Shown here: one piece after another, positions 508-54,367 of the stretch
Numbering within the stretch: the stretch's first letter is position 1
Layout: every line of letters starts with the position of its first letter
Source of the DNA: Hymenochaete sp. R1
Lineage: Eukaryota > Basidiomycota > Agaricomycetes > Hymenochaetales > Hymenochaetaceae
DNA length: 64,000 nucleotides
Reading direction: 5' to 3'
NCBI GenBank assembly: GCA_019400425.1
Contig: JAFREE010000018.1
Location: 206,265 to 270,264, forward strand
Notes under the pieces: model-generated
What the model was told of the DNA's origin: nothing
The model's database searches: none
What the model saw: the letters and a program-made list of their open reading frames with translations, nothing else
Program-made: the position numbers and the translations under genes

Positions 508-2299
508 ATGGCCCTCAGAGTTGATCCCCGCATAGTGCCCATCGTTATTGAAAGCCATTTCATCACAAGGCTCCTAAGATTCATTTTACCAACTGCCTTG
601 GTCTATGACTCACGTATGCACGCTCGACTTTTCATAAGTCTAGAATAAAACTGACGTACTTCCAAAGTGTGCACATTGGACAAAGAAGTCAAGTATATGT
701 GGGTGAGTCTACAGCGTCCTCCTGCTCGATCCCTCTAGTGAGCACAACGTTTAGACAGCTCCTTTTTCTTTCACAAAGTTGGTATATTTCTTGGTAGGTG
801 TGCTGAGGTAGACTTCGTAAGCTGTGCCGAGTTTAAACTGCCATGCAAATAGAACCGATACATAGGCATCATTGGCGCCATTTTAACTGCTATGCTTGCC
901 ACAGCTGTAAGACGGAAGGAAGGCATCACTTTTGCTAATAATAGTCCGGACGCACCTAGCGGAAAACTACTGTAAGTCTCAAGCCGCATTTAAAAGCTAC
1001 TACACCTGTATCTCCCCTTACTATGTCCCACAGGTGTACGCTCAACTTACCATTGTTGGTTCTGAACCTTTAATTGACTTTGCGCATGGACAGGCTATCT
1101 AGGTGTCTGGGTTCCAAATATATCGCGTACGTTTCACAAAGATGCACTAAAACATCTAGAGTTCTCCAAAGCTTATTTACATCTCCGTCCCATCACTAAC
1201 GAATCGAATTCTTTCATTGCCACCCCCCCTCCCCCAAAAAAAGACTCAATCACAATTTCCACTATGGACTGTGAGATTCATACGTTTATTATTTTGCATT
1301 CCTTGTGCTTACTACTGATATCTTAGACATATTGACCATCCGTGTCCTGGCACTCTACGAACAAGGTGTGTCGCATTATTTGCTATAAACTGACTTCTTC
1401 AATCAATGATGATCACTTTCAGAGAAGAGTTTGGTTAAGCTGCTGCATTCCCTTGCAGCTCTTTCAGCTGTTGCAAAGATGTCATTTAATATTTATATTG
1501 ATGCCAGTTATGACTGTATGCCATCTTCGACCATCGTCCATATTGAAACCCATTTCTCATCTGATTATCGCAGTCACCTTTATCGTCTTGACACGCAAGC
1601 TTTCAATCTGCGCAGCACTCGTGGATGTTCCAGAATCCCTATTCATCATCGACTGGTAAGCGAGACAGGCGAGAAACAGTTCGTCCGAGGGTTTACTAGC
1701 AGCTATCTAGGATGGTTCCATGCCTGTCTGGTGCCATTCTTGTGTCATTGGCTTTCTACAAAGCCGCAGAGTATTGGAAGACGCATGGCTTCAACACGTC
1801 GCGAATGGTCAAAGTTCTCGTTATGGATCAACTCTTCTATTGCATCATGTGAGTCACCTCATGTCTTCAATTAATTAGCATGATCGATATCCTTTCCTCG
1901 TATTAAAGCGCGATGGCGTGTTCCGTGAATGAAGTCTTGGGATCCGAATACAACAACAAATTAGGAAGTAGACCGTCTGCATTTAAGTATGGTCCTGGAA
2001 ATCCGACGCTCCTATGCATCATAGGGAGTCGAATGTTTTTCAATCTGAAGGAGGCAGGCGAGCATGGAGTCAATAAAGGGACGAACTACACTACTGGTAA
2101 CGACTTGTCAAATATGTCCTTCAATCTCTCAGCTCTCGGCAATGATAACGACAGGAAAGTTTTTCTCGTTTGTTTTTTAGCGCAACCCTCTGAGATGTTT
2201 TCTTTACTACTAGTGGGTTCTTATATACGAACCGGGATGGCGAACTTGAACTTGGATTTGATGGGCTCGAGGGTCCAAAGGTGTGAGATACGTTTTTAA
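508..2299 (+). CDS. DUF6533-family seven-helix membrane protein, copy A
   Basis: This is a multi-exon gene of the basidiomycete DUF6533 family (Pfam PF20151), integral membrane proteins with a GPCR-like seven-helix layout and no established function. The ATG at 508 opens an exon ending in ALVYDS with a donor at about 617. Later exons supply the family blocks in order: CTLDKEVKYMW (~670), NRYIGIIGAIL (~852), IRVLALYEQ (~1340), a membrane helix followed by KAAEYWK (~1760), DQLFYCIM (~1835) and the C-terminal block GNPTLLCIIGSRMFFNLKEA (~2000-2056). Its N-terminal exon is divergent and lacks the acidic DEV motif of copies C-G. The last exon is uncertain: I follow the open frame to 2299, but a final short intron as in the other copies is possible. 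Family assignment is firm; exact exons are not. Confidence 0.75.
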
Positions 2300-24020: not shown

Positions 24021-25665
24021 TTAGTGTGAGCGGACCACCAAAGTATTGAAGACAGCCTTGACTCCCTCTCGGCAAGTGGATTGGTGCGAACTAACATTAA
24101 TGCTCGTTCCTTCGTTGACACCGGCTCCACCTGCCTCTTTCAGATTGAAGAATATCTGGCTGCCAAGGATGCATAGGAGCGTAGGATTTCCTATAGCATC
24201 CAAAACAGTCTGGGCTGAATTTTGCACCAGATCCTCGCCGCTCACTATGGCAAAAACAGAGCACAGAATTGCTCTTTGCGTGAAGTTAGAAAGTACCGGT
24301 ATCGCTTTAAACAATTGAAGGGACTGACGTAGCGAAATACATAATTTGGTCGGTAATGAGAACCTTAACAAGTTTCGAACCGCTGAAGGAGTTCAACTTC
24401 CAATATTCCGTAGCTTTGATTACAGCTAGAACCAAAAGTAGCAGATCTAATGCAACAGGAGGAACCCTATACAACGCGTTCAGCAGTACATCCATGACCG
24501 AATGATATCACACACCAATCAAGCATATATGCAAACGTCGGTGCATTTGTTACATCAGCACAAGCTATTGTATCCTGCGCTAGCCCAACAGTTACCACTA
24601 GAATCGAAGAAATCAGACTTCTGTGACCAAGTATTTAGAATGGACCTCACCGCCCTCGGCCAAAGTAACATAGGTCATAAAAGATATTTTTGCGATAACT
24701 TCAAGACCTAGGAGAATATAAAGGACCAGAGATACTTTTGTCCCTGTTATTCATTTTCTTGATAAATATTTACCAATAGAAAAAAATGAATCAAGTGCGC
24801 GCCTTTATGATACAATGCCAGAACCCTGAGTATCAAGATATCTGGTCGAAGTTAGAGCCCATGATAAGATTGCATGTTACATGCGAAACCCCACAGTCAA
24901 TGGTGATAATGGTGATAGAGTCTACGGAACTTCAGACTGCGCAACCGAAGACTATGGAAATTGCACTCACAGGACAGGATCGGTAACCACGTGTAAAGTT
25001 TACCTAGTAAAAGAACATCGATATCAATGCGTACGATCACCTTCTTGAGTGTCAAGGAAGCACACATCTAGTAACAGTGTTAGCTTCGCAAGGATGACAA
25101 AACCTAACATACATACTGGAATAATGTTGCATTGTAAGACGGTTCTGCAGGGCAACGATATCAGCTCGAGCGTCCGCTGGTTTACGCTCGTATATACGAA
25201 CCAAGAACACGCAATACTGATCCAACAACCCCCACATAACGATTCTGCAGTTTGCTTTAGAATTGGACAGATGGAATTACGTCAATATACGCACCAAGAA
25301 AAAGACGATCTTGGTCAAGTTCATAGGAGCGAACTGATCCAATGTTAGCATTATGGATGGAGAATTGGTTTGAAGGCAAACATACCCAAAAGTATCTGAC
25401 CTGGCGGGTGGAATCATATAAAATGAAAAGAGACCACTAGCATACATATACATACTTCTTTCTCGAACGTGCATACTGGAGCAAATTGGATGAGCGAGCC
25501 TAGATACTAGAAACGGCTGTACTTACGCGAATCGTAAATTAACGAAGTCGCCAGTGCAATAGACAAGTAACCCAAAGTGTTTGTTTCCTCTATCCAAGGG
25601 GGAACCTCATCTGGAGGGATGGTTGCAACGATGTCTCGAACAGTAAAGGTTGACTTTGATAGCAT
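24021..25665 (-). CDS. DUF6533-family seven-helix membrane protein, copy D
   Basis: The first exon reads MLSKSTFTVRDIVATIPPDE then VPPWIEETNTLGYLSIALA and TSLIYDSR. Later exons hold LLLLVLAVIKATEYWKLNSF, SGSKLVKVLITDQIMYFAT (24310-24440) and GNPTLLCILGSQIFFNLKEA then GGAGVNEGTS (24130-24200). Unlike copies C, E, F and G, no donor is used after the C-terminal block. The frame continues through HQSTCREGVKAVFNTLVV to a TAA near 24021, so the C-terminal tail differs. The conserved arginine of GSRMFF is glutamine here. TATAAAA stands 52 bp upstream of the ATG. I take it as functional, since no frame break was found in the exons I could follow. Confidence 0.78.
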
Positions 25666-34933: not shown

Positions 34934-35824
34934 TGTGTGAGAGTCGTTGGAGGTAACGATGAGGAGGGTGGATATCGCCACGCGAGCGGGAGAGTGTCTG
35001 GAGCCTTTGTGTTGTTTTGTGGTGAAGTCCGAAGAGGCAGGTAATAATTGAGTCCGGATTCGAGACGGGCGCCGAGCGTCTCGCCAAAGCCGGTACCCAG
35101 CTAAAAAGAGAGCTTTTGTCGGAGAACGATGGCTGAATGTCGTCGACGACGACGACGAAGGGGACAATTTTCTGTGAGCGAGGGCGGATGTGATGAGAGA
35201 GGGAGGAAAAGAAGGGGGAGGGGTGGTAAAACGGAGACGCCTGGCTGTGTTTCCCTTCAAGTCAGTTCATTTCATTTGGCTTTTCTGTTCCTGCCGCGTT
35301 CTCCCTTTCAACTCTAAATTATACACTTCATTTTCATAATTTTATAATCACTTACACGCTTCATGTATGCATTTACTGTAGCTTTCTGGTGGTGTGGACT
35401 TGGTTGAATTCTCAAAAAAAAATCAATAAAATAAATTGTTGTCGAACGAGCGAGATCCAGAGCGGGAAATGATCCTGACACTCGAATCAAATCAAGCGAA
35501 GCGAATCCGGAGTCGGTCGGTCGAGACAATTGAGTACCTAATTTAGTTGTACTCTCCCACGACTTCAGTGTTTCTCCGTCACGTCTTTCAGTCAGTGTGC
35601 GCTCACATTCGCTCGTCCATCCTTTGAGTTCAACACAGCTGTTTCTTCATCAGTTACAACGCCACTAGTACGTTCTACCAGACTTGTTTTGAAACAATAA
35701 TGCTCAATATGCTTTATGCTATGCAGTGTCTCTTCCTTACAGGCAGTATGTCTCGTTTCGCAAGCCTCCATCTTTTCTCCTGCAAGGGGCTCTTTGATAT
35801 TCACTCACTTTCTCCTACAGGGAC
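34934..35824. promoter_or_regulatory. Divergent promoter region, INO80F-like / NDUFA13
   Basis: 891 bp between divergent start codons. On the plus side a likely 5'-UTR intron runs from a GTATGT donor at 35746 to the CTACAG acceptor ending at 35820, four bases before the NDUFA13 ATG. An upstream ATG at 35700 opens an overlapping frame that this splice would disrupt. Confidence 0.5.
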
Positions 35825-38800
35825 ATGCCCCCTCCGGGAGGTTTTGAATCCATCCGCTATAAGCGCAATCTACCCTTCCGTGGTCCTTCCAGCTTCGTCA
35901 TACTTGCAGGAGTCTTCGGCATATCTGCTTTCGGCTTCTATCGTTTGGGTCAAGGAAACCTTGAACGGAGGTAAGCCAATACAGTACCCATTTTACCTTT
36001 GCCTTCTTCGTCTTTCCTATCTTTGTCTACTTCTCTTCATACACCTCTCCATCTTCTCCCTTTATCCTTTTTTGCTCTCGTCAGCAATGACGTCTGCAAA
36101 TCATCCCCCGGCACGCTCGACTCCTATGCTCTATCTATCGAGAGCTTCCGCGCTTCCCTGGCCAATTCAGTTTAGATCAGGAGATCTCTCTGACAGGGGT
36201 TAACACCTCATCTGGTCCTCATATGATGACGAATACTTGTGGCGGACTACTAGCGAAAAAAGGAGAATGACGAAGAGGGGGTGGCAAGTCGCCCAACGGT
36301 TCGCTTGGGCATGATCGCGGCTACCGACAATGCTGAAGCTGAATTATACTTCGCGTTACAAGGAGGGCTTCATCGCATCCGTCATCACCAGCTTCACCGA
36401 CATCGCATGACTATGTCATGCTCGCAGCACCTTCGCATCAAGTTTGACTAATTGCGCAAAAGTTAGCGTCGATCTCTTGGGAACTGAAGGACGACGAAGA
36501 CTTCATGACACAGAACGAGGTGTCCGAATGTGACGGGGTGCTTACCCCCCTCTGCTTTTTCGATCCGTTCCTATGGGCATCGCACATCTCATCTTCAAAA
36601 TTGGGTCCTTTCGCCAAACGAATGGCTGACAGAGGGGTTCAATATACCATTGCTCCGCCGACTCTTCCTGCCACCCAGAATCCTTCCTATCTTTCTTGAT
36701 CGTGACGTGATCAAACGGAAAGGAAAGAAACAAGCATCTCTTCAACGGTGCACGAGCGATTGTATCTTCTGTCCTTTCCCCACCTCTCATTTCCACGATA
36801 TATTGGCGATACGCGTCCTCGGGCCGTCCTCCGTAGGAGAACGTCAAGAAGTCCGACCCAGTGATCGGAGCAGGGGAACAGCAGAGGGGTGCCACGTTCG
36901 CTTGCGTCCGGTTCACCCGCACCCGTGACCGCATGTGTATCTTTTCCATGGAACGTGCCGAACGATACAGAACGCGGCTCGATACCGAATTGGCTGCGCG
37001 GGCCTGCGTGTGCGAGAGAGGGAGAAGCTTTCGGAGTACTATCCCCCTGGCCTGGACGTGACCCCCTTTCCCCCCTCCTTCCTAGAGCTTTAAGTTTGGC
37101 CAGTGTCTTCCCAGTGCGTTGAATGAATCTTTGCACCCCACACGTCTAACAATGATAGACAATATTGGGATATATTGCGTGTCACGCTCCGAAGCGGTGT
37201 CTGGAGGTCGGACATAGGATTTAATGGACTGTCACTGTTACTGGGACCTGGCGAGCGAGGGGGTGGAGGAAGAATCGAAGACCAGAAGCAAGTGTAAACC
37301 ATCTCCAGCTCGGAAGCCAACGACGACATGCTCATTTCGGATTTGGGCCGACGGGGCACGTCAGAGTCAGGCTTTTGAATGTCTGAATTTGGAAGGCAGT
37401 TGGAACTGTAACATACGCTCCGAGGGTTAAATTTTGATCCCGTGCTCCGACGATCCGCGCGCCTCCTCTCTCTCCCGTCCTGCTGGGTCGTCGTTCCGCG
37501 GAGTAGCCTCGTGCCACGTCTTACGGCCCCCCTCGCAATTGCCTCATTTTGTGTTCTCCGGACGCCCGGGCATTCGTTCACTCCTTCTGGCCACGCCACC
37601 CTCCCCCCTCTCTCGCACCCTTTGTCCGAACCACTGTCCTTCATTCGCCCTCCGATCCCTCTTTGTCCGCGTTTGAACGTCAGAGGCGTCGGCGTCCAGA
37701 CGTCGAAAGCATCTCCACCCTTCATTTTTCACTTTCTTCCAAAATTATAATCTTCGTCTTCCAATCTATGTTTGCATGCAGTGCAATCACTCTGTCACAT
37801 GCATTCATGTTTCACTTTCTTCTTCATTGTTCTTGTCTTTTTTTTTTTCAAATCAAGAAAGTCGAAAGGAAAGCTGACTGACATATGCTGCTGTCTTATT
37901 GCACTTCATTGTTGCTTGACAGGGAACTGCAGCGCGAGAAGACATGGTCACGGATCCACCTTGTCCCACTTTTGCTCGCCGAAGGCGATCGGGACGTGTA
38001 CCGGCGTTCAGAGGCCGCCAAAGCTCGCGAGGCTGAGATCATGAAAGACGTCCCCGGATGGGAGGTGCGTTTATTCTCGGATTTTGACTCTGACTCGATG
38101 TTAAGCGCCTGCTTATCTGACTGTGCCTTTTTTCTTCGCCATCATGCTTTTCATACATTATCTTTTGACTCTAACGATAACGGCGACGCTTTTAACCTGC
38201 CTTTTGGATATACTTGGCGCTATTTTTGGACCTTCGGCTTTGTGTTCGCATTGCTTTTTCGGGGGACTTTCTATGGTCAATGCGTTACGGCTGTCAAACG
38301 TGGCTCGGCACCTCGCAACGGTCCCGCTTTTGTGTATTGTATCCGGCCCCGACCTCCCGATGCCTCCGGCATACTGTCGGCTCTTTGTACCGTTCGGATT
38401 GGGACGTGCAAACGGGTCCTTACTGGACCTCGGACGACTTTGGAATGACTGGACACACTGCGACGATGAATCATCATCGACGTTGGGGTTTCGACTGACT
38501 ATTGTTCGATGACTACGTCCGTAACGTCGCCTCTCGTTCTTGGCCGACGGTCGACATCTGAATGAATCATCGAAAAAACGAAAAACGGCTCTATCATTTC
38601 GTTTCGACCTGGGCGCGTCGCCTTACATCGCCATCAAACATGTTCCAAAACCATACGAACGCCGCTATCTCTGACCTTGCCCACCAAACCGACCCCGACA
38701 CGTCTTTCAACCTGACAAATCGATACTCGCCCGTTATCTCGTCGGGTAATGACTCGCCTATTCATTCATTCGTTCATTCGACTCACGGACGTTTCGCGGG

Positions 38801-39556
38801 AAACGGAAATCTCAATCGAAATCTCGGGTACACGGACATGCAATTCAACGCGATCCCGCACCTACGGAACTAAAACTGACCAAACTCAAAAACGCACCTG
38901 AACGGCGCAATCCGGCGATTTGCGTCGGCGCGGGAACGCCACTGTTTTCTTTCTTTCTTTTTCTTTTCGTGCTTGTGCGCCCCGCTCTGACTGACACGCG
39001 TGATTCTCCGCTTTTTCCCTGGTGCGAAATGTAACCTTGCGCCGATTGTGACTTTTTTTTGCATCCGGGTCTCGGTCTCGAACGCGGCGCGTTTATCCTC
39101 CTGCAAACATTCCTCTGGACCATGACTTTGGTACGTTCGGAAATGGCCTTGCGGGTGGCGTTTATCGCGGCGCTTGTGGACTCTCTTGTCCTTCGTTCAC
39201 TTGCACCTTCACGGTGCTGGACGATCACGCGTCCTATCGCGGGGGTGTTTCATTTACGATGGATGGAATGCACGTCTTGTTCCCAAATTCGACGGGTCGG
39301 CCGATTGGGGCGGGTGCTTTCGTTGGTTTCGCTGTATCGCTGCGGGGGGATACTTGTGTATTTTTCCTGATTCCGTACTTGACGGAACGGGGATTGTTAT
39401 TCGTTTTGGTACGGGTTAACTTCCATTGCGGCGTTGGGGATGTGACGGATGGGCGGAAAATTGGGTGGTGTGGTATGGATTGGATGTGATCAGGCCGGCA
39501 AGAGTGTGTACAACCAGGAACGGTACCGGGGCGCTGAGTCGATCGTCGTGCTCTGA
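35825..39556 (+). CDS. NDUFA13: NADH:ubiquinone oxidoreductase subunit NDUFA13 (GRIM-19)
   Basis: An accessory, single-helix subunit of mitochondrial complex I. Three coding exons, 35825-35970, 37923-38064 and 39494-39556, total 351 bp and 116 residues. Exon 1 encodes MPPPGGFESIRYKRNLPFRG and the membrane helix SFVILAGVFGISAFGFYRLG, ending NLE-R. Exon 2 gives RELQREKTWSRIHLVPLLLA then EGDRDVYRR and EIMKDVPGWE. Exon 3 gives AGKSVYNQERYRGAESIVVL and TGA. All are hallmark GRIM-19 blocks and the phases agree (2, then 0). The introns are 1952 and 1429 bp, some 20-30 times the usual length here. Intron 2 has a 1387-nt stretch without any AG before its acceptor; intron 1 has a strong alternative acceptor at 36083-36084. 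The exon calls are secure because the protein is reconstructed end to end. Confidence 0.95.
36085..36175 (+). other. Possible alternative terminal exon of NDUFA13
   Basis: A canonical acceptor (long pyrimidine tract, TCAG at 36081-36084) would define a 114-bp intron from the exon 1 donor, a normal size for this genome. Using it appends 30 codons (SNDVCKSSPGTLDSYALSIE and ten more) and ends at TAG 36173-36175, giving a truncated protein with only the membrane helix. Whether it is used is not known. Confidence 0.35.
38105..39491 (+). other. AG-dinucleotide desert in NDUFA13 intron 2
   Basis: I scanned every line from 38105 to 39491 and found no AG on the plus strand in 1387 nt, while GA, AA, GG and the reverse complement CT are all frequent. 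The last AG before it is at 38104 and the next, at 39492-39493, is the splice acceptor of the final exon. The sequence is otherwise of ordinary complexity and rich in CG. I infer selection at RNA level against AG between the branch point and the acceptor. Confidence 0.93.
38117..38140 (+). promoter_or_regulatory. Candidate distant branch point and pyrimidine tract
   Basis: CTGAC at 38117-38121 (branch A at 38120) is followed at once by a pyrimidine-rich stretch with a T7 run. It is 1373 nt upstream of the acceptor at 39493. The acceptor itself is preceded by about 60 nt of G-rich sequence. A weaker TTAAC at about 39416-39420 is a possible proximal branch point. Confidence 0.5.
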
Positions 39557-40097
39557 GCTCTAAGCTAAGCACTGGGTAGGTGCAGTGCGAACTGTAGGCG
39601 TAGAACGAATAACATACAATGGGTCAGTAGGCAGTAACACAGCCTTACTTGTTTAGCCTCCACCCTGCCCCGCCTTACGCGCCCTTTTCTCTTTGTCAAC
39701 ATTAACGACTGTGCATTCTCTCTCAATTAAATTGCGCTGTGCATGTTATGTTTTTTTCTCGGGTCGACCGCCTGTCTGGCCTGTGGAAATGTTAATGCTG
39801 TACATGTGTGATGCGCCTGATAAACTGAGGCGCCGTCTCGGATATACGCGTGTGAGCGTCCCAGTGTCAATGTCTCACTGTTCTATGACTGTTCTATGAG
39901 TACTAGTGAGTGTGTGGATGCGAAGAAAAAGAAGCGCACGTTGGCGGCTAATTTCGTATACCTCGACTCCGTCATCATTGCTATCGATGTTCTCTTCTTC
40001 TTTTTCTTTTTCCGCGAATGAACCCACATTACCCACATGGTGTTTTAATTTTTTTTTTTTTTTTGAGAGTACAGGTTCCTTTGCGGACCTGTGGCTT

Positions 40098-40116: not shown

Positions 40117-41767
40117 GCGACTGCTTTCAAAAACTGTGTGGTGGGTTTATTGTATGTTCCGAATTCAGGAGGAGGGAATCATTGATCATTCAAGTTGAAG
40201 ACCACCCCCCACCTCTCCTCCGACTGCCAGCCAGTGTAGCCCAGCATCTTTACATCTCAGTAGTATTTGTAAGCCGACCGTCATCCTGATAGTCTAGCCT
40301 AGACCCAACGAGCAAAAATAAACATATACGTGTGATAGCGCGCTAATGTATTCATTTCGAAGGAATGAAATGAGCATTTATATTCATGGCTACAGATTGA
40401 GGTTCAATATTAATCAGAGATGAAGAGGAAGGTTTGAGCCGAGTTTCTGGGTGGTTCTTCTTCTCGGTCGGTCGGCTTGTGTGTCACACTTGACGAAAAT
40501 GGAAGTAGTGACGGTATGTGACAAATGTGACTAACTGTGACTGAGTGCCTGTCCGCGCAAGACCCCCTGGCCCCGAGGATGATTCTTTTTTTCAACCCTT
40601 TCCTTCCTTTTTACCAATAAACCCTTCATCATCACCGTTCCTCGTTTTACGGCGACGAAAATACACGTCTCTCGTCCGCTCGTTTATCTATTGCTGTGTC
40701 TTTTTGGGAGTCTTTATTGTCCGAAGCAGCCGAGTGCCAAAGAGGCACTGTGCTTACTCGTTTATCAGCGTGGATTGAAAAAAGGGGAAGCGGGAAAGGT
40801 TGGGTGGTCTCGGGTTTGGCGGAGGCGGGGAGTTGGTCTGCTTTTTTGTTTGTGTGAGTCCCCAGGGAAACATCCTGATTCCGTGTTGATTCCGGTGCTG
40901 ATTCTAATTTGTATGGGCTGTGATGCCCTGATTGTGATTTTGATTGTGTCATTATCTTTTACGGTGTTGTGTGTGACCTTTTGTGAGTCAAAATAGAGTT
41001 GCGGGGGAAGATTGGCTGGGCCCCCTCATGCTGCGCTCGACGACGAAGCACGCGTTACATCCTCGGCGACCGAGAGTGGGAACGGCTGATAGTAGGGGAG
41101 GAGTGCCGGTATGGGAGGGGAGGCGCTCAATCGGCGAGACAGTGCGAAGAAATGCGGACATGGAGCTGCTGGACGTACGGACAGCGTCGTCGTCGCTGTT
41201 GTCGTCGACACCGACAAGGACACGGAGTCGGACAATAACTTCATGGCCTCTTTCGGCAACTTCGTCTTTTGCAGGAGTCACGTCTGTCCGACGGCATTCA
41301 TGCAGCGCCTCTAGACGTGTCCGTCCGACCCATGAGGAGGAGAATACCCATGCATATTACTATGCCGGCAGATCCCATGCAGGTGCCGTCGACGTGACTG
41401 GCGATGCTTGTGTTAGCTCGAACGCCATACGATGTGGATCTGGACACGAGATCCGGAGTCGATTGTTCTTGCGATTGCTTACTTCCGACAGACGCCCCCA
41501 TCATCACCAAATCCTGCATCAGCAGCAACATCACCGGGTCTATTCAGTCGGTGCAGACTCCCTCGATTCGGGGCCATCATCATCACCACCACCTTCTTAC
41601 ATATGGACGCGGACGAGACCTGGTGGTCGGAGTGGCTTCGGAGAAGGGGATGGACGTGTGATAAGATTGGGAATATCAATGGGATTGGGTGAGTGGACGG
41701 AGACGAGTCAGAGAGTGGAAATAAAAAATAAATTAAAATATTATTTGGTTATAGACTATGCGGGTGG

Positions 41768-41775
41768 TATAAATA
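41768..41775 (+). promoter_or_regulatory. TATA box of HMG-box gene
   Basis: TATAAATA 126 bp before the first downstream ATG (41901). The interval is strongly CT-rich, as is usual for fungal leaders. Confidence 0.6.
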
Positions 41776-41900
41776 CAGACCCTACCTCAGCTGCCCGTAC
41801 CTCTCTCTCTGCCCCCTCTCCTCGTCGTTCCTCGTGCAACGGCCCTCCCCTCCCTTTCTTTCCTACCCCCATCTCGCTCCGTCGTCTTCGTCTTTGTCGC

Positions 41901-44900
41901 ATGCTTCCAACTCCCTCGACGTCGACAACAGCATACTATCACTCCTCGTCACACGCATACAACCACCCTCGTCCACCCCAAACGCAGTCACATCCACATC
42001 CTCATCGCTCGAGTACTCAGGAAACGATAAAGCCTTACTCCCCGACGCGGGTATCCTCATTTGCTGCTCGACCCAATTTCTCCTCCGCTAGTGCCACCCG
42101 AATTGCTTCCGGATCGGAAATGGACCCCGGCCACGTTCCACGTTCCATGGCTTCTGCCCCATTTGCATCCGCCCCGTCCGTGCCCCCGTCCACCTCTGGC
42201 AGTCACGAGGACGCGCTTCACCATCACTCTTATCTTCATCATCCTCCACCGCCGTCCTCTGCTTACTCCGACTTTTCGAATGTAAACACCAACTTGAACG
42301 GCAAGGATGACGACTTCAACCGATTGTTTGCTTTCGACCTCCTGGGGACTTCCTCTCCAACGGTCCCAGTGCTGCATACACCTTCTTTGGGGCAACAGCA
42401 TACGCTTAGCCTTCCGAGCCCTCCACCAGCAAGCGACGTTGACGGGGATGGCATGAGTCCCGCCCTCTCATTCGCAGGATCGCCTTCGCCGACGTGGTCT
42501 CCTGCCGGACCGGGTTCCGCTTCGCTCATCACTCATCCTCAGGCGGCGCAGATGCACGCACAGACACACTCGCCTACGTTCGACTCGCCCACGGGGAACT
42601 CGCCCGCTTTGTCAGTGTACGACGGAGGAGGAGCATATGGATTGGGACTGTTCGGGTCTAACGCCGCTGAAGACGGTATATTCTTCGGTGAGTGGACATC
42701 TTCCTCGGTCCCCTGCCCCTCCTACTGCGGAATGGGCTACGGTTTTGGTTTTGACTTGCCTGAAGAGGCGGATGACTCATTTCGTGTTTGTGCTTCTCTA
42801 GGTCAGTGCGCGTCGGCACCGATGGATGTTGGGGAGCTCGACTTCGATGGGGCTTTCTCCCTTCCCTGGGACTCGTTTCCCTCGGGGTCTCCAGAGCCTC
42901 ACCTTGGCTCTCCGAGGAATCAGCAGCAACAGCCACAGCAGCCACATCAGCAATTGTTCGCGTCACCTCAGACTCCCCAGTACGGTGGTCCCTACGTTGG
43001 CCCGGGACCATTGTCCGCTCCTAACCCCGCTGCGCCGCGTCTGTCTCCGTACACTCCTCCGGCCGTCGCACCTCGGGACCTTGAGTTGTCACCGGGCTTC
43101 GCCCATCCGACTTCTAGCTTATCTTCATCTACCCCGCTCTGGGCTGCGCAGTTGTACGAGACCCCTTCGTCGGCCACGGGTACAGGCTTCGAAAGCCGCA
43201 ACTCGTCATTTTTAGCTTCTCACGGACGCAGTGCAAGTGACGCCAGTGTTTTCACCTCATTTCAACAGCAGCAGGGCATAAATAGCAACCCATCGTTCGT
43301 GCCTCCCCCCTCAGCCCCGGCCGCGATACCTATTCCATCTTCAGGCGGAAGTGGGCTCAATGCGGGTGACACAAGCTTCGGAGGTAGTGCTGCGCTTGCA
43401 CAGCTCTTCCAACCAGCCAGTGCTCCCGTGTCTATCCCTGGAAACTCCAATTCCTCGTCTTTCATGTCAATGACGACGACTGGTGCCTCAGGGTTGCCTT
43501 CTCAATCACCCTACCACGGTTCAATTGACATCAATGCCAGGGGTAATGTCCAACGTAGCCAGGACCTGAAGGGTCCGGGCTCAGGGCTTCGGAGCCGCAT
43601 TAGGAGCGCGAGTCAGCGCGTCGGAAGTGGGCTGCGGGATGCGCAGCGTGCAGTTTTCCACACGCGGACAGCTCCATACGCTCGAGGAGGATCTCCTTCG
43701 GACAATGTCAATGCAAAGCTGGAGCAAGACGCAATAGATGCTGCTGCCCAGAGGGACTGGGAGCTTAAGATGAGCATTATGGACGTCGATGGGCTTACGA
43801 ATGGAACTGGAGATGGCACCATGAGGGTTGCGTTCCCTACTTCGACTACGTCACCGATGCAGATGAGGAGGGATCCTGATGCGACGGTGCGGGATTCACG
43901 CAGGAAGAGGAGTAACACGACTTCAAGCAGCACCTTTGGAGCTCAGCGACCTTCATTCGCGTCCGGTCTCCCATCTTCTGAGCCAACGACGTCTTTCCTG
44001 CTTTCTCACTCGCGTGAAGGGTCCGAACCGTCTGTGGGTCGCTCGCGTGCAGCGTCGGAGGAGTCAGGCAAGTCCGAAGATGACCCGTCGAAAGAGAAGG
44101 ACAAAGAGGCCCCATTGCGCTCGGAGTTGCGTCCGCCTAAGCTTGCACCAAGCACTTGGCAGCTATACTTTACGGACTGGATTTCTAGACACCAGATGGT
44201 AAGGGGCGATAGGAAACTCAATGTTGCACAGGCAGCGAAAGAAGCCGGGGCCGAGTACGCAGGATTAAGTCCTGAGCAAAAGGAGGTTTGTGTTCAAGTC
44301 TCACCTCATTCAGACATTGTTTCTCATTCGTTACTTTTTTCATATCGTACATGATGCAATTTTACCGACGTCCGCCTTGCAGCCGTACAAGCGTCGTTCT
44401 CAAGCCCTCAAGAAGGCTCGTGCGCAGGAGCTTGCAGCCTGGCAGCGTACTCTCACACCTGAGGCCATCAAACGCGAGAATGCGTTCCGCGCACAACAAC
44501 GCAAATCTGGTCGTTCTCGCCGAGGCAACATCAAGGATCCAAACGCGCCGAAGAAACCTCTCAGCGCGTATTTCATGTTCTTGCAATACGTCCGCGCCGA
44601 CTTGGAGCGCGTTAAGAGGGTTTTTGGTGACGAAAAGGAGACGACGGCACAGAGCGTGCTCGCAGCGAAGTACTGGGGGAGTATGACCGACGAGGAACGC
44701 AAGGTGAGCTTTCAGTCTCCGTCCCGCCCTTCTCGTTTCTCCTTTTCGGATTTTATTCTCCGATTTTCTGTCTGTTTTTTCGAAGCTTTGCAGCTTCATC
44801 TACCTTTCACTGCCATCTCTTCAGATCACTATTGCTTCCCTATTTTCCCCCTTCCATTTCACTTAACCCCGCTGCTTTCACCATCTGAGCGAGAGGTTGG

Positions 44901-46677
44901 ACTCTCGCCATATCTTATCGCCGCCGCTCCTCTAAATCTGGACGAGCGTGTATTGCACTTCCCTTATTTGGAAGTCAAACTCTGAGCTTGTCGGGCTGTG
45001 CAAGCCTCATCTGTCTCCGTCTCATCTGTGTCTATGTTTGTTCGATGCTGTGCACAGACCTGGGGACAGTCGATGTCATTGGTTCCTTTTTCCTTCCGTC
45101 TTGAGGATTTGGTGATTCCGAGCCCTCTTTGTTCTCTACTTTCGTCAAGAGGTTCGATCGGCCGCGTACACGTATGCTGCGGAGGCACTGCCCTTTGACC
45201 ATATTCATGGATAGGAACTGTAGTTCCAGGACGGAAGGACCTCTAACACCCCGTGGGAGAGCATGACCCTATGACCCTCCCCTTCTGCACTTTGTCTTTA
45301 CTCGTCCATCCCATTCTTCTTTCTTCGACTTTTCGGCGTTCTTTGAATAGAGCCCCCAAGTCGAGCCCCTTTCTGCCTCCCTTCTCTTTCGTTCTCGTGA
45401 ACTTCCCCCTCACACCATTCAGTTGTTCTTCCTTCTTTGACCCGCAACAAACTCACATCCCCGTCCGTCCCGTACTCCGCCGACGAGAGCATGCCGGGTT
45501 CGGCGAGCGGGCTCGAATGACGAATGAGTCATTTGAGCTCACTTGTACACATTTGCACATCTTTGCTTCTTCTCCGCTCGTCCCGCTCGCTGGCAAACGT
45601 GTCCTTGCTGTGAACGTGCCACGCGCATCGGAAGGTACCGTGCCACCTCTGCACTATCTTTCCGATCCCCCTTTCCCCGCTCATCGAGTACATCTGCACA
45701 TATCGCGCCTAGTTCCGGGTACGCGCTTCGGTGCGGGGCCTCCGGACGGTGAGAACGTCACGGCAGGTCGAAGAGGCAATCGGAGTCGGCGCTTTTGCAT
45801 TCGGCCCTCGTATGCTTTTCATTATCGGCGGGAGAAGCGCTCTTGACTTCGAGCTTCTTTTTTTCCCTCGGTATGCATTTATGTGATCCTCGTGATCTCG
45901 CGATTGTGTGGCTGAAGCGCTTCGGAGCGCGGCGTTATCTACTTTCTCTTTGCACTTTCACCATCATTGGTTTCCCGATCTCTGGGGGAATGGGAGGTGT
46001 ATGCTGTTCTCGATTGCGAATTTGGACGCGATCTCGGGCCGTGGATCGACGGGGGGAGCTCAACTGTTGGGCATCTGCGACCCCTATGTCCTATTTTCTT
46101 CCCAGATCATTTCATTCGACATTTCATTTGTCGTTACGAATGATTTCGACATGACTATAGTTTTATTTGGCATAAGTTTCGGCTTCGTTCGGCCTTCGTG
46201 AAGTCCTTCTTTCTGTGTTTGTGCTCTGGATTCTGGGAGTTTTCGACATCGCAATCTTGTCGCTTTCATTCACGTTATCTTTCTTACTCTCTTTTCCTAA
46301 CTTTACCCACTTTTTCTCTCTTTGAAACTTTCCTAATCGTATTTTTATCGATATCCTTATCTTTCTACCGCTTTTGCGTTTGCTTCGCGATGCACGCTTA
46401 CTGACTCCTTTCTCTTTCTTTGTCACATCTTGTGACTTCATAGCCGTTCCTTGCACAGGCCGAGAAGGAGAAGCTTGAGTACGAAGCAGCAAGGAGAATG
46501 TACGAAGAGGGAACCGTGGGCTTCGAGACGACCATCAGCTTCGATAACGCCGACTTTGCCTCGGGGTCGGGCTCGAACGCTGGTCAGGGCCAGTCGGGTT
46601 CGGGCAAGCGAGGTGGGAAGAAGAACACTGTTGCATTTCCTGCTGGTGCTGGGATGGGTGCAGCATTCGTGATGTAG
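41901..46677 (+). CDS. Two-HMG-box transcription regulator, Exp1-like
   Basis: Four exons (41901-42687, 42802-44285, 44383-44703, 46444-46677) give 941 residues. The first 700 are disordered, rich in Ser, Pro and Gln, with short acidic hydrophobic patches (FNRLFAFDLLG) that could be activation motifs. HMG box 1 (about 705-785) starts LAPSTWQLYFTDWISRHQ and continues VAQAAKEAGAEYAGLSPEQK. HMG box 2 (about 808-885) starts DPNAPKKPLSAYFMFLQYVR and continues KYWGSMTDEERK-PFLAQAEK across a 1740-bp intron. Two HMG boxes at the end of a long disordered protein recall Coprinopsis Exp1, needed for cap expansion and autolysis; this parallel is from memory and unverified. The start is the first ATG after a TATA box; the frame is open 306 codons further up. 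An acidic reading continues after the stop. Confidence 0.82.
42688..42801 (+). other. In-frame 114-bp intron, possibly optional
   Basis: GTGAGT at 42688 and CTCTAG at 42796-42801 bound 114 nt with no stop codon in the coding frame. Removal joins FFG to QCASAPMDVGEL; retention inserts 38 residues. Both products keep the frame. Confidence 0.55.
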
Positions 46678-52631: not shown

Positions 52632-54367
52632 ATGACAGCAAATACTTCTTTTATTCTTCGCGATGTCGCGTTCACAGTACCCCCACAAGAAGTGGCTGGA
52701 TGGATAAAGGAAAGCATCGTACCAGGTTACCTATTGACTATTCTCGCATCTGCTCTTATTTACGATTCAAGTAAGCACGCTGTTACCCTATATCTTACCA
52801 GGTCCGTTCAACTCGATTTAGTACACACGTTTGAGAAAGAAGTATGTAAATTTGAGCACATCATTATTGTAATGACTCTGACTGCATCACTATCAGGTTA
52901 AATATTTCTGGGTATATTCTTTGACTTCAACGTCGTATATCTGTGTAATATACCTCTGCTCAGTCTTCTCCGCTGAGTGCGACGAACATCATATACTTTC
53001 TAGTAAGTGATGTAATACCCTTATCTTCCAATACATTTCTGATGATACCATAGAACCGTTATATTGGCATAATTGGATCAATACTACGTATATTTGGTAT
53101 GTCATTGTGGTGGAAGATTAATTCACATAAGTAACTGGCTGCTCAGAAGCGTCTAACAATGCAACATTATCCGAGTCAGTTCTTGAATAATTAGGCATTT
53201 TCCTGGCTAATTAATGTCAATAGGTGTATGCTCCTCAAGGCCACAGGCTGAAAAATACCGATTCTGATCCAGTTGCGTTAGGTAAACTATACACGTGGTT
53301 GCCTAGCTTATCCTGTGAGCAAAACTTATTTCTATACGAAGTTCAATACTGAAATGAACGACAGACACAATAACCATCATAACAATTGATTGTAAGGGCT
53401 TCAAAATGTTGGTATAAAATGCTTATAGCCATAGTCAGATATCTTGACGATCAGGGTTCTGGCTTTGTACGGTAATGGTATGCTTCCACATTTAATCAAT
53501 AGCGCTCGTTCACGCTCTACGCAACAGAACGAAATATATCGATCATCCTTTACGCCCTCGTAAGTATCGAGGCAGCCATGAAAGTATCTTTGATGGTATA
53601 TGGTACCTTGGTTAGCAGTAGTAAGTACGCATTATTTTGAAAAGCGAACTTTGTTAAGATCCTCGATAGTCGTTGTTGCTGGTTTAGCAAATGATGCTAC
53701 ATCTTGTGCCGTAGCCTCTTCTTCTCCACAATGGGCATATCTTCTCGATTGGTATGTTGAGTTTTTTTTTGTTATCCATGTCACTGATCAAAATATTCAG
53801 GGGGCTTCCTATGGTGTTCGGTTTAGTGTTGCTGGTCTTGGCTCTGATCAAGGCGGCTGGTTACTGGAGGCTTAGGAAATTCGAGGGATCCAGGCTCCTC
53901 AAAGTCCTTATAACCGACCAAATTGTATATTTTGCTGCGTGAGTTATTTTTTAAAATTTAACGAGGTCTCTGTTAACCACTGGCAAAGGGCAATATTATG
54001 TTCGATTTTTGCGATAGTGAGCGATATGTCCAGCATTTCTGAACAATTCGCAGCGCAAAACGTGATAAATGCCTTGGGAAATCCGACGCTTCTATGCATC
54101 CTTGGTAGTAGGATGTTCTTTAATCTGAGAGAGGCAGGAGAGGCTGGTGTCAATGAAGGAACAAATGTAGGTTCCTATCGTTCCACGACCAGTAGTATTG
54201 GTTTTCAAGAGCCAAATGATGGAGAAGAACAGTGCGTTCATATCTTCCAAAGCGCCTTTGAGGCTAACATTGTTATTTACAGACATTCGCGGTCGGATAG
54301 CGATGTATTTACGGAATCGGCATCAACCCACTGGGATCCATATGTGGTGTCTGCCCCAGAAGTTTGA
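52632..54367 (+). CDS. DUF6533-family seven-helix membrane protein, copy E
   Basis: The exon chain can be followed almost completely: MTANTSFILRDVAFTVPPQE then GYLLTILASALIYDS; HTFEKE-VKYFW; NRYIGIIGSILRI; TITIITID; DILTIRVLALYGNG; VVVAGLANDATSCAVAS; GLPMVFGLVLLVLALIKAAG then YWRLRKFEGSRLLKVLITDQ and IVYFAA; AILCSIFAIV; and GNPTLLCILGSRMFFNLREA then GEAGVNEGTNVGSYRSTTSS. A last phase-2 intron leads to a Ser-rich tail ending VVSAPEV at 54365-54367. The hydrophobic blocks fit seven helices. Exons are separated by introns of about 50-60 bp. It is the clearest family reference in the window. Function unknown. Confidence 0.85.

Follow-up and report, generated by a model that had tools for sequence, protein, structure and literature searches.

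In animals, distant-branch-point exons are spliced via a distal branch point and the first AG downstream of it (PMC1431707, PMC2991248, PMC7969005), exon 3 of alpha-tropomyosin being one that carries an AG exclusion zone (AGEZ) (PMC1431707). Gooding et al. 2006 used a zone of 150 nt or more as the cut for closer examination, and the portions of that paper drawn on here report AGEZs of 381 nt for PTB exon 11 (590 nt in Fugu), 438 nt for nPTB, and 288 nt for GABBR1 exon 23. In human tyrosine phosphatase sigma, an intron of 1132 nt displays an AGEZ of 1126 nt, while the mouse ortholog has only 229 nt (PMC1431707). Intron 4a of OGDH, which lies between mutually exclusive exons, has branch points near the donor, a mega polypyrimidine tract and, according to the portions of the report used here, a zone of about 280 nt (PMC7969005). 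Much shorter distances have been described for fission yeast: S. pombe reporters are poorly spliced once the acceptor lies 30 nt or more from the branch point, and branch-point-distant introns are aided by Sde2, Cactin, and Tls1, as stated in the sections of that work covered here (PMC9508853).

Here, we describe an AG-free zone of 1387 nt in intron 2 of NDUFA13, a gene for a subunit of mitochondrial complex I, of the basidiomycete Hymenochaete sp. R1, located in a window of 64,000 nt (the whole stretch of DNA analysed). The zone is longer than the 150-nt cut of Gooding et al. 2006, exceeds that of tyrosine phosphatase sigma by 261 nt and is the longest met in the literature searched, where titles and abstract openings yielded no AG-free zone above 1126 nt and none of kilobase scale in a fungus. 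The sequence-only reading of this DNA had held that no AGEZ near this length was known, which the 1126 nt of the human intron contradict. As far as the portions of these papers used here allow a comparison, the locus resembles the animal distant-branch-point exons in that AG is missing all the way from a candidate branch point, which has a pyrimidine tract and sits close to the 5′ end of the zone, to the acceptor, but it differs in its length, its fungal host, a conserved terminal exon instead of a known alternative exon, and the lack of pyrimidine filling. With the tyrosine phosphatase sigma intron, it shares an AG exclusion of kilobase scale over nearly the whole intron as well as candidate distal branch points; the fungal zone is non-repetitive. 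OGDH intron 4a is similar with its branch points near the donor and its long AGEZ, but not in its exons, its tract, and its zone length. The branch-point-distant introns of S. pombe likewise represent fungal 3′ splice sites at unusual distance, and matches to the factor families are present here too, but tens of nucleotides are concerned there versus 1.3 kb here (PMC9508853). Since S. pombe reporters are already poorly spliced at 30 nt or more, a distance of 1.3 kb is demanding and surprising in a fungus. The AG exclusion rule is already established, and what is new is the extreme length, the fungal host, and an apparently constitutive intron.

AG Content of the Zone

Between positions 38105 and 39491 of the window (+), AG starts at none of the 1387 positions, the flanking AGs being located at 38104-38105 (5′) and 39492-39493 (3′). 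The base composition of the zone is ordinary, with 255 A, 370 C, 348 G, and 414 T (18%, 27%, 25%, and 30%), and because of these counts about 64 AG would be expected. Indeed, 2000 mononucleotide shuffles of the zone revealed a mean of 63.8 AG and a minimum of 43. The other 1387-nt windows (n = 1294, overlapping, drawn from the window together with 200 kb of the same contig, with those touching the AG-free run excluded) showed a mean of 86.3 and a minimum of 32. CT, which is the same dinucleotide on the opposite strand, occurs 103 times in the zone; the depletion is strand-specific and restricted to the sense strand. Our recount and shuffles therefore bear out the sequence-only reading in its claims that AG is absent from the interval although base composition predicts many, and that CT is common there, and its expectation of 70-90 AG comes near to both computed values.

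The second-longest AG-free run of the window has a length of 203 nt, and the next longest runs (five in the window and six in C90) span 140-203 nt, with just 1-6 AG expected in each. Outside the window, 246,093 bases of this genome, about 0.9% of it, contained no AG-free run longer than 191 nt and no CT-free run longer than 202 nt. As about 1.1% of the genome was examined, window included, further long AG-free cases may exist in it. Downstream of the acceptor, AG is back at once in and after exon 3, with 10 AG in the bin 39500-39599. Another AG-free run, of 172 nt (39656-39827; 6 AG expected), was seen about 100 nt 3′ of the NDUFA13 stop codon.

Gene Structure of NDUFA13 and Edges of the Zone

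The exon 5′ of intron 1, encoding DMPPPGGFESIRYKRNL...LERR, was placed at 35821-35970 (+; start approximate) by its translation and a Pfam GRIM-19 match at 35822-35974, and its donor reads AG|GTAAGC. Intron 1 (35971-37922, +) is followed by exon 2 (37923-38064, +; ELQREKTWSR...MKDVPGWE), which is supported by a Pfam GRIM-19 match, translation, and alignment. Intron 2 (38065-39493, +) has a length of 1429 nt, reads GTGCGT...ATCAG, and contains 2 AG in all, one of them being the acceptor at 39492-39493 (+). The terminal exon (39494-39556, +), identified by its open frame and by alignment, comprises 20 codons and a stop and encodes AGKSVYNQERYRGAESIVVL. When exon 2 is joined to it after the AG at 39492-39493, the frame stays open until the stop at 39556, and the spliced product, which lacks the N-terminal exon, can be aligned from end to end with GRIM-19/NDUFA13 of basidiomycetes. 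Among the best 120 of 367 matches, Fomitiporia mediterranea (86%) is the closest, followed by Pyrrhoderma (83%), both genera belonging to the Hymenochaetales. A second gene, labelled diaphanous/formin in five jgi entries, had no near match from a named species, its best one reaching 69% over 52% of the query. In an alignment of 14 sequences, namely the query and 13 chosen from the 367 matches, the W, E, G, K, and Y of WE|xGKxxY across the junction are invariant in 14 of 14, with variation in the final few residues. Because of these conserved junction residues, the acceptor is set by the protein, independently of any argument from AG. The identity of the gene, its intron 2, and the acceptor had been proposed before from the sequence, and the full-length alignment together with the conserved tail after the acceptor corroborates all three. 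Judging from this tail, which its splicing delivers, intron 2 is apparently constitutive.

The AG before the zone occupies nucleotides 40-41 of intron 2 (38104-38105), so that the first base of the interval, 38105, is the G of this AG; the next AG is the acceptor. The earlier claim that the AG-free stretch fills intron 2 thus holds for its 3′ end, which reaches the acceptor, but not for its 5′ end, where about 40 intron bases with one AG precede the zone. Used as an acceptor, the AG at 38104 would yield an intron of 41 nt. It is probably too near the donor for use, because 41 nt is less than the 46 nt of the shortest candidate in a survey of short introns. This survey was done without homology and gave 34 unverified candidates with visible false positives; the settings were a length of 42-120 nt, a branch-point distance of 6-60 nt, and a required CTRAY, and since these ranges are built in, it says nothing on the usual branch-point distance in this fungus. 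As background only, AG was absent downstream of the first CTRAY (+9) as far as the acceptor in 24 of the 34 candidates and present in the other 10. Both edges of the zone coincide with splice logic, one about 40 nt into intron 2 and the other exactly at the homology-fixed acceptor. No AG starts within 38105-39491, meaning that the zone offers no internal acceptor, and recursive splicing or a stwintron is thereby ruled out.

Candidate Branch Points and Proposed Splicing Mechanism

Three CTRAY motifs lie in the first 110 nt of intron 2, at +26, +53, and +107 from the donor. The second, CTGAC at 38117-38121 (+), is a predicted branch point whose A (38120) stands 55 nt from the donor and 1373 nt from the acceptor; it ends TATCTGAC at 38114-38121 and is the one with a strong pyrimidine tract behind it, C or T occupying 17 of the 20 bases that follow. 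The third, CTAAC at 38171-38175 (+), is likewise a predicted branch point, with its A at 38174 and 1319 nt to the acceptor. The first, CTGAC at 38090-38094 (+), has its A at 38093 and is followed 11 nt later by the AG at 38104. According to the AG count, AG is absent between the two candidate distal branch points (38120 and 38174) and the acceptor. Around the first and the third motif, the 13-mers TTTTGACTCTGAC (38082-38094) and TTTTGACTCTAAC (38163-38175) are near-identical; branch-point-like, they lie 81 nt apart and close to the donor.

At the 3′ end of the intron, the CTRAY nearest to the acceptor has its A 123 nt upstream, with none within 122 nt, and the last 30 nt before the acceptor are G/T-rich, with 40% pyrimidine and no pyrimidine tract. 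Weaker TRAY motifs do occur at -51 and -77 from the acceptor; as a counter-point to distal branching, these could act as conventional branch points of intron 2.

The distance does not seem to be bridged by RNA structure. The minimum free energy (MFE) of intron 2 stood at z +0.46 relative to 60 dinucleotide shuffles, hence not below them. The paths from the three candidate branch points to the acceptor take 19, 10, and 48 steps in the MFE fold, compared with shuffle means of 29, 39, and 61 (SD 10, 17, and 24), and are, in this one predicted fold, shorter than in the shuffles by about 0.5 to 1.7 SD. With this z value and paths within 1.7 SD of the shuffles, folding is too slight an effect to explain the distance.

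From these features, we infer distal branch-point use, a linear search, and selection; a first-AG mechanism under purifying selection had also been proposed in the sequence-only reading. Intron 2 would be branched at a CTRAY about 55-110 nt after the donor, either CTGAC at 38117 with its pyrimidine tract or CTAAC at 38171. Lariat formation, as the first step, would be independent of the 3′ AG, and in the second step the spliceosome would pick the first usable downstream AG, 1.3-1.4 kb off. A new AG in the zone would then act as a premature acceptor and corrupt the 20 conserved residues at the end of the protein, and purifying selection would keep AG out. AG is probably absent up to the acceptor because an earlier one would be read as the end of the intron. 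To this reading, with branching near the 5′ end, first-AG choice at 1.3-1.4 kb, and AG purged by purifying selection, we assign a probability of roughly 0.77. That first-AG selection reaches this far from a donor-proximal branch point in a fungus, the intron being constitutive and its gene one of core respiration, with neither unusually stable structure nor pyrimidine filling, appears to us somewhat probable. All five splicing-factor families sought, Slu7, Prp18, Cactin, Sde2, and Hep_59 (the last presumably C9orf78/Tls1), were matched at or over the family cut-off, Sde2 exactly at its 26.4 bits; being general factors, they lend this reading weak support.

If true, intron 2 would put the linear-search model to the longest test in nature known to us and would be an AG-free intron maintained by selection over nearly its whole length, a single dinucleotide apparently being under selection along a kilobase of seemingly non-coding DNA. 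A natural intron of 1.4 kb with a single usable AG would also be a clean substrate, in which inserted AGs report whether and how far the first AG wins. Gene finders tuned to short fungal introns likely miss the last exon of NDUFA13.

Intron 1 as Internal Control

Intron 1 is longer than intron 2, with 1952 nt, and contains 89 AG versus 2. In its last branch-point motif, CTGACTGAC, the As precede the acceptor by 45 and 41 nt, and the 30 nt leading up to the acceptor consist of 67% pyrimidine, versus 40% in intron 2. Six CTRAY sites were found in it; among the four upstream of the presumed branch point, three have an AG 44-59 nt downstream and the fourth has one at 10 nt.

These numbers bear on a general avoidance of cryptic acceptors, the alternative that survives best. 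Intron 2 would here have several branch points or a weak proximal one, and scattered branch-like motifs would make any AG compete. Consistent with this, ten CTRAY are distributed across intron 2, the zone reaching 6.5 per kb versus 3.05 per kb in the window, and the TRAY motifs at 51 and 77 nt could serve as proximal sites. Intron 1, however, tolerates its six CTRAY together with 89 AG, including the three AG at 44-59 nt past upstream CTRAY, and because such pairs are tolerated, if intron 1 is removed whole, a CTRAY with an AG behind it is not enough to force splicing, a point that also weighs against the distal branch-point reading. With a weak proximal branch point, moreover, the 1.3-kb exclusion would have no explanation unless distal sites were in use too. 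Taken together, we regard this alternative as unlikely.

A part-copy of NDUFA13, comprising exon 1 and part of intron 1, was noticed elsewhere in the assembly; positions 35583-37130 of the window are 90.8% identical to L004 1263-2809 (C1:715989-717535). It ends before intron 2, its donor is altered and its exon changed, and it is probably dead. Over 1159 nt, intron 1 and this copy have diverged by 9.1%, sharing 45 AG, while 12 occur only in the window and 18 only in C1. With 89 AG in intron 1 and these 30 found in one copy only, AG is not generally avoided. Given this turnover of AG in intron 1 or its copy, a kilobase without AG would not be expected to persist unselected. In the zone, 602 of the 4164 single-base changes would create an AG, and from the part-copy and these mutation counts we estimate that, without selection, it would gain about two AG per 1% divergence.

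Repeat, Coding, and RNA Content of the Zone

Repeats within the zone are short, namely two tandem arrays of 20 and 15 nt, and across the whole intron 2 there are two pairs of direct repeats, 13-14 nt long, plus an inverted pair of 14 nt. A similarity search with E up to 10 and simple repeats skipped found no second copy of the stretch in the assembly of 27.8 Mb and 336 contigs. A repeat or low-complexity cause of the AG-free stretch is ruled out by these results.

It is distinctly improbable that the zone reflects a constraint or mutation bias outside splicing, for instance from an antisense gene or RNA that overlaps it, or an AG-free ancestry. Open frames of 129-188 codons do exist on both strands, in the zone or overlapping it, and the lack of a second copy in the assembly leaves room for an AG-free ancestry. 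Of the six frames compared with Pfam, however, five had no match at E up to 1 and one hit GRIM-19, by way of exon 2; with this as the sole match, a nested protein gene was rejected. Base composition differs little among the three codon positions of the zone, and in Rfam nothing exceeded the family cut-off across 35500-40000, where one line was at chance level (E 4, 21 bits versus a cut-off of 50). The edges of the zone, matching splice sites, speak against a constraint outside splicing as well.

Chance, an assembly error, or an altered sequence is hardly credible; the sequence is known from one assembly, but 0 AG face about 64 expected, and an error would be unlikely to strip a single dinucleotide from just one strand along 1.4 kb of non-repetitive DNA and to end at the acceptor.

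The frame of exon 2 stays open for 128 codons past the donor (37882-38448, +), for which the stop frequency gives a chance of about 0.06. A longer NDUFA13 product from retained intron 2 is conceivable.

Other Features of the Window

Three open frames, at 1907-2299 (+), 24021-24392 (-), and 53876-54367 (+), share by eye a GNPTLLCILGSRMFFNLREAGEAGVNEGTN-like segment, which we take to belong to the DUF6533 family. Downstream of NDUFA13, at 40977-44985 (+), long open frames were observed that include the segment DPNAPKKPLSAYFMF..., presumably HMG-box-like.
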